The translations under genes were made by a program, and so were the position numbers. Below, in pieces: positions 6,129 to 19,037 of a stretch of 64,000 bases of DNA. How positions within the stretch are numbered: position 1 is the first letter of the stretch; each line of letters starts with the position of its first letter. The DNA is from Candidatus Aenigmatarchaeota archaeon. GTDB taxonomy: Archaea > Aenigmatarchaeota > Aenigmatarchaeia > QMZP01 > QMZT01. The notes under the pieces are model-generated. The model was not told where the DNA came from and did not search any database. It worked only from the letters and a program-made list of their open reading frames with translations. The stretch lies in contig JAFGCI010000001.1 in assembly GCA_016932735.1 (NCBI GenBank), positions 1-64,000 on the forward strand. Direction: 5' to 3'.

Positions 6129-7220
6129 ATGAGAATTTATGTTGCTACGTGCCTTATCGGAAGCTTTGCCTTTGATAAGGATAAGAATATTCTGCTTTAC
6201 AAGCTCTTCCCAAAAGACGTCGAACTCATTTCCGACAGGCTTGCTGAAGCCGATAGGAAGGAAATAACATCCGAAGAAAGGGAAATTGTCGAGGAGCTCA
6301 AGGAAAGCGGGGCACAGGAAGTCGTCTGGGACAAGGCAGACCAGATAGAAGGTATTTCATGCATCCAGAAGGAAGACAATCCGGCCCAGCAGATTCTGAG
6401 AGACGAATTCAGGAAGCTTGCAATAGACCTTAAATGGACCAACAGCCAGGCAGAGATTAACCAGATGCTGACAAAGGTCAATATTGAGCTTTCAAAAAAG
6501 AAGCTGAGGCAGACCAAGAAAGACATAATACTGATTCAGGTTGTCAACACATATGACAGCATTGAGGAGAACATGAATACCATATCCGAGCATATTCGCG
6601 AATGGTATGGGCTTTACTTCCCAGAGTTAACAAAGAGTGTTGCAGACCACCAGAAATTCATAGAACTCGTCGCAAAATACGGAACAAGGGAGAACTTCAG
6701 GGAAGACAAGCTCTCTGAAATAGCAAAGAAATCCGCAGGCATGGATTTTGACAGCAACGACATCAAAGCGATTTCGGATTTTGCCGAGACGATGAAGATA
6801 ATGTACCAGACAAAGGAAAAATTATCACAGTATGTCGAGAAGCTCGCAACAGAAATCGCCCCTAATGCATCCGCCATTGCAACGCCCATAATCACTGCAA
6901 GAATGATTTCGCTTGCTGGCGGAATTGAAAGAATGGCCAAGATGCCTTCCTCAACAATACAGCTTCTGGGAGCAGAGAGAGCTTTGTTCAGGCATCTGAA
7001 GGGACAAGGCAGAGCCCCGAAATACGGCGTTCTTTTCCTGCACCCTTATGTGCAGAACTCGCCAAAAGCGATACGCGGAAAAGTTGCAAGATTGCTCGCA
7101 TCCAAAATCAGCCTTGCGGTTAAGATAGACAAATATTCAAAGAAAGACCAGTCCGCACAGATGAAAAAAGAAGTCGCAAGAAAGATTGACGAGCTTCAGA
7201 AAACCGCAAAAAAGAAATGA
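6129..7220 (+). CDS. nop5: Nop5/Nop56 C/D-box sRNP core protein
   Basis: Scaffold protein of the archaeal box C/D RNP that guides 2'-O-methylation of rRNA and tRNA; it bridges L7Ae-bound sRNA and fibrillarin. The N-terminal fibrillarin-binding domain, the central coiled coil and the Nop domain with the conserved GRAPKYGVLF segment and basic C-terminus are all present. The length of 363 aa is normal. A TATA box at about 6083-6091 and GGTG before the ATG suggest its own promoter. Fibrillarin, usually the next gene, is absent here; gyrA converges instead. Confidence 0.93.
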   Translation: MRIYVATCLIGSFAFDKDKNILLYKLFPKDVELISDRLAEADRKEITSEEREIVEELKESGAQEVVWDKADQIEGISCIQKEDNPAQQILRDEFRKLAIDLKWTNSQAEINQMLTKVNIELSKKKLRQTKKDIILIQVVNTYDSIEENMNTISEHIREWYGLYFPELTKSVADHQKFIELVAKYGTRENFREDKLSEIAKKSAGMDFDSNDIKAISDFAETMKIMYQTKEKLSQYVEKLATEIAPNASAIATPIITARMISLAGGIERMAKMPSSTIQLLGAERALFRHLKGQGRAPKYGVLFLHPYVQNSPKAIRGKVARLLASKISLAVKIDKYSKKDQSAQMKKEVARKIDELQKTAKKK

Positions 7221-7240: not shown

Positions 7241-9835
7241 CTATTCAGACTTTTCAATTGTAGAGGGTTCAGAATTTTCGGTTTCTTCATCTCCGTCCAT
7301 CTTTTCGAATCTTGTGAAAGAGACGACTTTATCACCTTCATCGAGCTTCATTATGCGGACTCCCTGGGTGTTTCTTCCTATTTTCGATATCTGTTCAACT
7401 GGAATCCTTATCGCCTGGCCGTTCTTTGTCATGACAAGAATCTCGTCTGTGTCAAGGACAGGCTTGATATAGACAACATTCCCGTTCCTGTCAGTAGTCT
7501 TTATGTTTATGACGCCCTTCCCTCCCCTGTGGATGGTGTTGTATTCCGTGAACTCTGTCCTCTTTCCGTAGCCGTTCTCTGTCATGGTCAGAAGGGATTT
7601 CGTGATGTCAGATGTGCATGCTCCGACGACTTCGTCACCTTCGGAAAGTCTGATTCCGCGGACACCGGAACCTGTCCTTCCGATTTCCCTTGCCTCGGAT
7701 TCATCAAAGCGTGTGCAGAGACCGCTCTTTGTCGCTATCATTATATCGCTGTGGCCGTCTGTTATGAAGGCGTCCCTTAACTCATCGTCTTCTTTTAGAG
7801 TGACTGCCCTTATGCCGGAGACCCTCGGACGACTATAATCCATCAGGCTGCTCTTTTTGACGGTCCCTTTCTTTGTTACCATCACGAGGCTTTTCTCTTC
7901 CTCAAACGTCCTGATAGGTATAAAGCATTTGATGGTCTCGCCTTCCTCAAGATTGATTAGATTCACTATGGCCTTTCCTCTCGAATATCTGCCTGAGTCG
8001 GGGATGTTGTAAGCCTTAAGCCAGTAGACTTTTCCTTTGTCAGTAAAGAACAGTATGTAGCTATGTGTGTTTGTTATGAAGCAGTCTGATATTATGTCGC
8101 CTTCTTTCGTCTTGGCTCCTATAATGCCCTTTCCGCCCCTGTTCTGTATTCTATATTCCTCAATGGGAAGGCGCTTGATATAATCGTCTTCGCTTATGGT
8201 TATGACGACATCTTCCTCATCTATAAGGCTTTCGTCATCAATCTCTTCAAATTCCATTGCATTATTTATCATTGTTCTTCTCTTATCCGAATATTTCTGC
8301 TTCATTTCAAGAAGCTCTTCTTTGATTATCTTAAGAATTTCATTCTCATCGGCAAGTATTGCTTTCAGCTTATCAATAAGCTTTCTGAGTTCTTCAAGCT
8401 CTTGCCTCACTTTATCCTGTTCAAGGTTTGTGAGGCGCGATAATTTCATATCAAGGATGGCATTGGCCTGTATTTCGGTAAGGCCGAAAGTGCTCATTAG
8501 TCCCTGCCTTGCTGTCGGGACATCCTTTGATTTCTTGATAAGTTCGACAACAGCATCTATGTTATCAAGGGCGATTATCAGGCCTTCAAGTATGTGCGCC
8601 CTGTCCTCTGCTTTCAAAAGCTCGAATTCAGTTCTTTTTCTAACGACAACCCTTCTGTGGACAACAAAATTATCAATAATCTCCCGAAGGCCCATGACCT
8701 TCGGCTGGTTATTAACCAGAGCGAGCATTATGACGCCGAATGTGCTCTGAAGCGGCGTGTGTTTGAAGAGGTTGTTCAGTATGACGTCAGAGTTCGCGTC
8801 TTTCTTCAGTTCGATGACTATGCGCATTCCGTCCCTGTCAGACTCATCACGCAGGTTGCTTATACCCTCGATTTTTTTATCCTTTACCAGCTCTACAATA
8901 TTCTCTATAAGAGCAGTCTTGTTGACCTGGTACGGAATTTCTTTTATGATTATAGTTTCCCTGCCTTTCTTTTCCTCAATCTCAGCAGTTCCTCTTACAA
9001 CAAGCCTTCCTCGTCCTGTTTCATAGTATTTCAGGATTCCGTTCTTTCCCATCAATTCTCCGCCGGTCGGGAAGTCTGGTCCTGGAATATGGCCCATAAG
9101 TTCTCTTGTGGTAATTCCAGGATTCTCAATGGATGCTACGACAGCATTGCATACCTCTTCCAAATTATGTGGGGGTATATTGGTAGCCATCCCGACCGCG
9201 ATTCCTGATGAGCCGTTTATCAGAAGATTGGGTATCTTTGACGGAAGGACTAAAGGCTCTCTTGTCGAACCGTCAAAATTAGGAACGAATGGAACGGTGT
9301 TCTTTTCTATATCCCTCAATAACTCTTCGGCAATTGAAGCCATTCTGGCTTCAGTGTAACGCATAGCAGCAGCCGCATCTCCGTCAATCGAGCCGAAGTT
9401 TCCCTGCCCGTTGACAAGGGGATATCTCAATGAGAAGTCCTGTGCCATCCTGACTAAAGTATCATAAATAGCTGAATCTCCGTGCGGGTGATAGTTAGCC
9501 ATGCATGTTCCGACAACATTAGCCGATTTCCTGAAAGGCTTATTGTGAAGAAGGCCGTTCTCCCACATTGTGTATAGAACTCTCCTGTGGACCGGCTTTA
9601 GGCCGTCGCAGACATCCGGCAAGGCCCTTCCGACGATTACTGACATTGAATAATCGAGATATGATTCTTTCATCTCGTCTTCTATGACCCTATCTATAAC
9701 CTGTCCGGGCTTTACGGGCTTTATCTTTTCCGGGATTTTTGGAGTTTCCTCTAATCCGTCCTTCTCTACCATTTTCTCGACTTCTTCCATATTCTTTTCA
9801 GTCTCGTCTTTGAATCTGTCATCTTCAGCCATCAT
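7241..9835 (-). CDS. gyrA: DNA gyrase subunit A
   Basis: Breakage-reunion subunit of bacterial-type gyrase, which adds negative supercoils. An acidic extension of about 45 residues precedes the conserved core. The catalytic tyrosine is in AMRYTEARM (Tyr160). The C-terminal pinwheel domain has the GyrA box QNRGGKG at about residue 565, which marks a gyrase rather than topoisomerase IV. The length of 864 aa is normal. The start overlaps the stop of the upstream NUDIX gene (ATGA). It ends the gyrB-NUDIX-gyrA operon and converges with nop5. Confidence 0.96.
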   Translation of the reverse strand: MMAEDDRFKDETEKNMEEVEKMVEKDGLEETPKIPEKIKPVKPGQVIDRVIEDEMKESYLDYSMSVIVGRALPDVCDGLKPVHRRVLYTMWENGLLHNKPFRKSANVVGTCMANYHPHGDSAIYDTLVRMAQDFSLRYPLVNGQGNFGSIDGDAAAAMRYTEARMASIAEELLRDIEKNTVPFVPNFDGSTREPLVLPSKIPNLLINGSSGIAVGMATNIPPHNLEEVCNAVVASIENPGITTRELMGHIPGPDFPTGGELMGKNGILKYYETGRGRLVVRGTAEIEEKKGRETIIIKEIPYQVNKTALIENIVELVKDKKIEGISNLRDESDRDGMRIVIELKKDANSDVILNNLFKHTPLQSTFGVIMLALVNNQPKVMGLREIIDNFVVHRRVVVRKRTEFELLKAEDRAHILEGLIIALDNIDAVVELIKKSKDVPTARQGLMSTFGLTEIQANAILDMKLSRLTNLEQDKVRQELEELRKLIDKLKAILADENEILKIIKEELLEMKQKYSDKRRTMINNAMEFEEIDDESLIDEEDVVITISEDDYIKRLPIEEYRIQNRGGKGIIGAKTKEGDIISDCFITNTHSYILFFTDKGKVYWLKAYNIPDSGRYSRGKAIVNLINLEEGETIKCFIPIRTFEEEKSLVMVTKKGTVKKSSLMDYSRPRVSGIRAVTLKEDDELRDAFITDGHSDIMIATKSGLCTRFDESEAREIGRTGSGVRGIRLSEGDEVVGACTSDITKSLLTMTENGYGKRTEFTEYNTIHRGGKGVINIKTTDRNGNVVYIKPVLDTDEILVMTKNGQAIRIPVEQISKIGRNTQGVRIMKLDEGDKVVSFTRFEKMDGDEETENSEPSTIEKSE

Positions 9836-18723: not shown

Positions 18724-18766
18724 GGGGAAGAATTGAATTCCAAAAATAAAAGTGTCGAGGGCGGGA

Positions 18767-18804
18767 ATTACAGCTTTGCTGGAATCGCCTGCTCCAGCAG
18801 AGTG
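18767..18804 (-). other. tRNA intron 2, T-loop (59/60), 38 nt
   Basis: Second bulge-helix-bulge: exon TTCA faces intron TGTA (three pairs and one T-T mismatch), with bulges AAC and ATT, then an interrupted inner helix leading to 7-bp TGCTGGA/TCCAGCA. Cuts AA^C and AT^T restore T-loop TTCAAAT and the full T-stem. Confidence 0.78.
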
Positions 18805-18826
18805 TTTGAACCCACGACCTCCAGAT

Positions 18827-18922
18827 GCCTCAAAAGCACTAAGATATCATTCCAGTCCAGTATGACGACTTATATCGATTTGATCAAGTCGTCTTTCCGG
18901 CTTTGGTCATCACTCATGTTTT
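18827..18922 (-). other. tRNA intron 1, anticodon loop (37/38), 96 nt
   Basis: Bulge-helix-bulge at the exon-intron junctions: exon CTCA pairs with intron TGAG (4 bp), with a 3-nt bulge TGA on the 5' side and GCA on the 3' side, flanked by the anticodon stem and an AAA/TTT inner helix. Cuts TG^A and GC^A give the loop CTCATGA. The intron also contains an 8-bp hairpin GACGACTT/AAGTCGTC. Confidence 0.88.
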
Positions 18923-19037
18923 CATGAGTCTGGCGCTCTACCCCTGAGCCACCTCGACATATCCCTATATTAATATATGAGGTTTTTAAGTGTTGGTTAG
19001 AGGGCATGTTTTTATTGAAAGTTATCATTTAGAATAT

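Follow-up and report, generated by a model that had tools for sequence, protein, structure and literature searches.

Intron-encoded guide RNAs are known from archaeal tRNA genes. The 37/38 intron of archaeal tRNA-Trp contains a box C/D guide whose antisense elements target nucleotide 34 (Cm34) and, in addition, Um39 (PMC4090602, PMC7994747). The intron of the Nanoarchaeum equitans elongator tRNA-Met encodes a stable C/D-like RNA with a D box and a variant C box, for which the text names no target (PMC3491384). C34 of archaeal tRNA-Met is a known C/D target (PMC7994747; PMC4033218), and the guides in question, a Pyrococcus C/D sRNA (PMC7994747) and the haloarchaeal sR-tMet (PMC4033218), are separate RNAs that are not described there as lying within the tRNA-Met gene. 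In the literature accessible to us, N. equitans is the reported case of a C/D-like RNA within a tRNA-Met intron (PMC3491384), and intron guides are otherwise reported for tRNA-Trp only (PMC4090602).

Multi-intron tRNA genes form a second comparison system. In Thermoproteales and ARMAN-1/2 (Sugahara 2008; Fujishima 2010, 2011; reviewed in PMC4033280), bulge-helix-bulge (BHB) introns occur at the canonical and other positions with up to three per gene, similar introns are found in different tRNAs, and the endonuclease has broad specificity. The ε2 enzyme of ARMAN-2 (PDB 4fz2/9w2k; PMC12397907) is a further point of comparison.

Here we describe a tRNA gene with two BHB introns from an archaeal genome that we assign to Candidatus Micrarchaeota. 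Intron 1 and like introns in Met, Gln, Lys and Arg tRNAs are read by us as an extension of the known tRNA-Trp intron guides and of the putative N. equitans tRNA-Met intron C/D sRNA. Unlike the tRNA-Trp guide, they have only one box pair, a weaker box consensus in the Met introns and no second target that we could see. The N. equitans RNA shares the host gene; here, comparison of many genomes points to C34 as a self-target, and introns of Gln, Lys and Arg tRNAs follow the same rule.

Results

Gene structure and identity

The gene has the anticodon CAU and lies at 18753–18958 on the minus strand of the window, by which we mean the whole 64,000-nucleotide stretch of DNA analyzed. It consists of three exons and two introns:

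18923–18958, minus strand: 5′ exon, positions 1–37 (the joined exons are called tRNA-Met(cat) by ARAGORN)
18827–18922, minus strand: intron 1, 96 nt, canonical position 37/38, strict BHB (introns at the same place in relatives)
18805–18826, minus strand: middle exon, positions 38–59 (from the sequence)
18767–18804, minus strand: intron 2, 38 nt, T-loop position 59/60 (BHB UUCA/UGUA, 3/4 pairs)
18753–18766, minus strand: 3′ exon (from the sequence)

Read on the minus strand, the 5′ exon (GTCGAGG-TG-GCTC-AGGGGTA-GAGC-G-CCAGA-CTCATG) contains the acceptor strand GTCGAGG, the D-arm, the anticodon stem CCAGA and the loop CTCATG with the anticodon CAT. The middle exon (A-TCTGG-AGGTC-GTGGG-TTCAAA) supplies A38, the anticodon stem TCTGG, the variable loop, the T-stem GTGGG and the T-loop TTCAAA, and the 3′ exon supplies T60, the T-stem CCCGC, the acceptor strand CCTCGAC and the discriminator A, without an encoded CCA. 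Deletion of both inserts yields a complete 72-nt cloverleaf, which ARAGORN calls tRNA-Met(cat). Deletion of intron 2 alone is sufficient for a call, because ARAGORN copes with intron 1 by itself; no ARAGORN call is obtained if intron 1 alone is deleted or if the gene is left intact, and the window contains no ARAGORN match and no Rfam match at the gathering score. The intron positions and lengths and the 72-nt mature form proposed in a first-pass annotation of this DNA are upheld by these cloverleaf and ARAGORN tests, and its warning that the gene could defeat standard tRNA finders proved correct. Searched against Rfam, the gene itself gave a tRNA match below threshold and C/D snoRNA matches at chance level, none of which we used. 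The gene RNA folds with greater stability than shuffled sequences (z −4.2).

The tRNA is most likely the elongator tRNA-Met, as judged from its sequence. Its body resembles the GCCGGGG/CCAGA Met genes of relatives and is unlike the GGGCCC type (locus L147), and the initiator is encoded by a separate, intronless gene (locus L007). Searches of the whole 1.18-Mb genome returned the initiator as the only other tRNA-CAU and a single match for the elongator 5′ half. The gene is therefore single-copy and not a spare. These searches revealed no pseudogene and no second intact elongator-like tRNA-CAU; the latter, with this copy unexpressed, would according to the first-pass annotation have counted against its reading. 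The same-genus ortholog (L145/L081) adjoins the same helicase gene and has three introns, located in the D-loop, at 37/38 (137 nt) and at 59/60 (70 nt).

Splicing motifs and endonuclease

The motif at intron 1 is strict: exon CUCA (positions 32–35) pairs with UGAG (4/4), and the bulges on either side, UG^A and GC^A, are each 3 nt long. The motif at intron 2 is a relaxed one, in which UUCA (54–57) faces UGUA with 3/4 pairs and one U·U; its 3-nt bulges are AA^C and AU^U, with the T-stem outside and the intron hairpin UGCUGGA/UCCAGCA inside. One of the four pairs is a mismatch here; the case for intron 2 rests on its family. We compared registers in 45 T-loop introns from this genome and its relatives. 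The predicted register has 4/4 pairs in 28/45 introns, and in introns longer than 16 nt (n = 39) it averages 3.6 pairs versus 1.2–2.4 at neighbouring registers. The base opposite position 57 covaries with it, being mostly U for A57 and mostly C for G57.

The splicing endonuclease (394 aa) matches ARMAN-2 EndA over its full length (4fz2, E 6e-106). Its Tyr/His/Lys triad (Y239, H253 and K284) aligns with the catalytic Y236, H251 and K282 of ARMAN-2 EndA, and K159 aligns with the loop lysine K161 (residue roles from PMC6379350). Judged by the full-length match and the retained residues, the enzyme is of the three-unit (ε2), broad-specificity type, in agreement with the suggestion in the first-pass annotation that it might be of a heteromeric or three-unit type. 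Enzymes of the ε2 type cut relaxed motifs. Many genomes of the same order (e.g. G019, G034, G012) have two endonuclease genes, one ε2-like (∼400 aa) and one short (∼184–240 aa).

T-loop introns in the genome

A custom cloverleaf search of fetched loci yielded 21 parsed tRNA genes, at least 13 with a 59/60 intron and 4 with a D-loop intron, from a tRNA list that derives from searches, is incomplete, and is biased to T-loop introns, one of the searches having relied on a T-loop pattern. In the first-pass annotation, T-loop introns had been described as known mainly from Thermoproteales and a few small-genome lineages, and a tRNA with both introns as unusual for this type of organism. By the counts above, T-loop introns are not unusual here, and multi-intron tRNAs are already reported in ARMAN-1/2 (PMC4033280); the T-loop intron is therefore a further case of a known type. 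What differs from the Thermoproteales and ARMAN-1/2 genes is the gene and genome, and the dominance of position 59/60.

Different tRNAs share intron sequences (Gln(UUG)/Met, 82%; His/Gly(CCC), 92%). The latter is a T-loop intron of ∼75 nt (L017 and L022, own genome), and akin sequence recurs at two more places (L102, L110), suggesting recent intron copying that would resemble intron transposition in Thermoproteales (PMC4033280). Intron 2 has no sign of a function of its own and may be one of many T-loop introns spread among the tRNA genes of the lineage. T-loop inserts of 10–12 nt, very short for archaeal tRNA introns, are found in Met and Lys genes (L031, L032, L127), and the tRNA-Met genes of L034 and L037 have extra introns of ∼12–13 nt within the anticodon stem.

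A guide-like element in intron 1

Intron 1 had been set aside in the first-pass annotation as the usual 37/38 intron. The position is correct, but "usual" is not, as the intron contains a conserved guide-like element with the following parts:

18912–18918, minus strand: guide segment CAUGAGU, antisense to positions 31–37
18907–18910, minus strand: D-like box AUGA, with fixed spacing across isotypes
18864–18893, minus strand: palindrome GACGACTT-N14-AAGTCGTC, a dispersed hairpin, sole exact copy in its own genome
18844–18850, minus strand: C-like box AUGAUAU, which closes a kink-turn-like internal loop (AUGAAAU at the same place in the sister species)

The intron begins with AAAAC-AUGAG-UG-AUGA. 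The AUGAG core is antisense to C32–U36 and is flanked by a U opposite A31 and a C opposite G37, giving a 7-bp guide duplex with A31, C32, U33, C34, A35, U36 and G37. Both the minimum-energy and the centroid fold predicted for the precursor pair the guide with the exon in cis. Box C/D guides direct methylation to the nucleotide that pairs with the fifth position upstream of box D; here, the fifth guide nucleotide upstream of the D-like box (D+5) pairs with the wobble nucleotide C34.

Both boxes depart from consensus in this gene (D-like AUGA for CUGA, C-like AUGAUAU for RUGAUGA), with an A·A in the box pair where C–G is expected, and the D-like box overlaps a GUGAUGA that can be read as a perfect C box. 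Inspection of intron 1 by eye revealed neither a second box pair (C′/D′) nor an intact terminal C/D pair. Archaeal C/D guides normally have two box pairs, and a duplex of 7 bp is short for such a guide. With imperfect boxes and a single box pair, the element is therefore described as working like a box C/D guide, not as a proven member of the class.

The palindrome lies towards the apex of the box-closing stem. In the form GACGACTT-N12-14-AAGTCGTC it is present in 16 copies in a relative (G006) and in one exact copy in the genome studied here, and one Arg(UCU) intron and one Asn intron contain similar palindromes (L014, L075).

The genome contains genes for the endonuclease, fibrillarin and Nop5. 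The last is located in the window:

6129–7220, plus strand: Nop5-type gene, 363 aa, box C/D RNP core protein (PF01798, E 3e-62; the match spans G000:C1:6555–7190)

Positions 7241–9835 (minus strand) of the window strongly match a bacterial-type DNA gyrase subunit A, in an archaeon.

The layout in relatives and other isotypes

Among the Met introns of relatives, little is constant beyond R-UGAG, two nucleotides, N-N-G-A, a stem and x-RUGA-NN, and the stem between NNGA and x-RUGA-NN is a hairpin of changing sequence. We formulated the layout as a rule (antisense to 32–36, 2 nt, NNGA) and applied it to 91 Met, Lys, Gln and Arg(UCU) introns; five Met introns were read by eye. The rule fits 70/91 introns, compared with a mean of 6.2 and a maximum of 13 in dinucleotide shuffles, the related genomes being non-independent samples. 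By isotype it fits 38/42 Met, 13/16 Gln(UUG) and 18/32 Lys(UUU) introns and one Arg(UCU) intron, sampling being broad for Met, Gln and Lys only. None of the few Asn, Phe, Ala, Cys, Thr, Ile, Pro and His introns in our sample fits it.

The layout is the same in the Gln(UUG), Lys(UUU) and Arg(UCU) introns, and their antisense is adapted to the host tRNA. Met introns match the loop of tRNA-Met in 38/42 cases and no other loop in more than 6, and Gln introns fit the Gln loop in 13/16 and other loops in at most 1. Among in-class introns, the NTGA box is offset by 2 nt in 46 and by any other distance in at most 7. Compensating changes extend the duplex on both sides: the guide nucleotide opposite position 31 is its Watson-Crick partner in 59/68 introns (shuffle mean 27.7), as is that opposite position 37 in 59/68 (39.5), and D+1 does not pair with position 30 (3/68). 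The first D-box nucleotide covaries with the sixth C-box nucleotide (21/35 versus 10.4), and many Gln and Lys introns have textbook CUGA/UUGA and GAUGA boxes. Outside the class, 12/16 parsed CAU introns fit, and the Met case is therefore not confined to Micrarchaeota. In the Lys(UUU) introns L032, L041, L270, L274, L275, L278 and L280, the box (unclear in L041) lies ∼4 nt beyond the antisense, an offset that would aim the guide at C32, not U34.

Discussion

We read intron 1 and like introns as putative self-targeting box C/D-like guides for wobble 2′-O-methylation. For the gene described here, we think it likely that it is a working elongator tRNA-Met with two BHB introns, the first of which would guide methylation of C34, and that both introns would be removed by the ε2 endonuclease. 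We infer the following course of events. The precursor would fold with intron nucleotides paired to positions 31–37 of the anticodon loop, and the D-like and C-like boxes would form a kink-turn bound by the archaeal C/D proteins L7Ae, Nop5 and fibrillarin. Fibrillarin may then methylate the 2′-OH of C34, either while the intron is still part of the precursor or in trans, guided by the intron once it is excised, and the ε2 endonuclease would cut both BHBs, with ligation producing the 72-nt tRNA. Positions 32–35 are common to the guide duplex and to BHB 1, so the two structures exclude each other; methylation and splicing would have to be successive, or the guide would have to act in trans as proposed for tRNA-Trp.

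The antisense could instead be a folding device only, which makes a stable precursor hairpin or hides the anticodon before it is spliced, with the kink-turn as a protein handle without methylation. This is unlikely in our view. The duplex does form in cis in both predicted folds, there is a single box pair, and several relatives have short introns, some only ∼30 nt long. A mere hairpin, however, does not need a box spacing fixed at 2 nt across isotypes, nor does this reading account for a layout that is found mainly in Met, Gln(UUG), Lys(UUU) and Arg(UCU) introns and in none of the few introns sampled from Asn, Phe, Ala and Cys. C34 of tRNA-Met is moreover a known methylation target, and the Gln and Lys boxes are textbook.

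It is distinctly improbable that we are looking at a plain two-intron tRNA, its neutral insertions cut by the ε2 enzyme and its guide likeness left over from decayed ancestry. At D+8 the guide has a C opposite the unusual G37, where most relatives have U opposite A37, and the guide match is therefore maintained in this gene; the same-genus ortholog likewise retains the boxes and their spacing, although the rest of its intron sequence is very different. The off-consensus boxes of this copy and the dispersed palindrome inserted between them are the features that agree with such decay. That the gene is dead or misread, the T-loop insert being unspliced in a pseudogene or an artefact of assembly, is extremely improbable, since against the mismatch in one of the four central BHB 2 pairs stand intact stems throughout, the lack of any other elongator-like tRNA-CAU in the genome searches, the ortholog from another assembly that is also broken at 59/60, and a design common to 12 other tRNA genes of the genome.

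Beyond this locus, we regard it as fairly probable that 37/38 introns of Met, Gln(UUG), Lys(UUU) and Arg(UCU) tRNAs in Micrarchaeota and some other archaea self-guide wobble methylation. These tRNAs read AUG or purine-ending split boxes, in which wobble misreading changes the amino acid. In several tRNAs whose wobble must not misread, the shared layout aligns the host's nucleotide 34 with the site of methylation, and decoding accuracy at split boxes is a plausible reason for keeping the introns.

The T-loop introns indicate that micrarchaeal tRNA sets can be heavily interrupted, and tRNA counts from standard finders will therefore be too low. It has long been asked why archaea retain introns in their tRNA genes, and for one class of introns the layout gives a direct, testable answer. 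If our reading is true, the tRNA-Trp case would exemplify a general rule, and the introns would be retained for the sake of accurate decoding.
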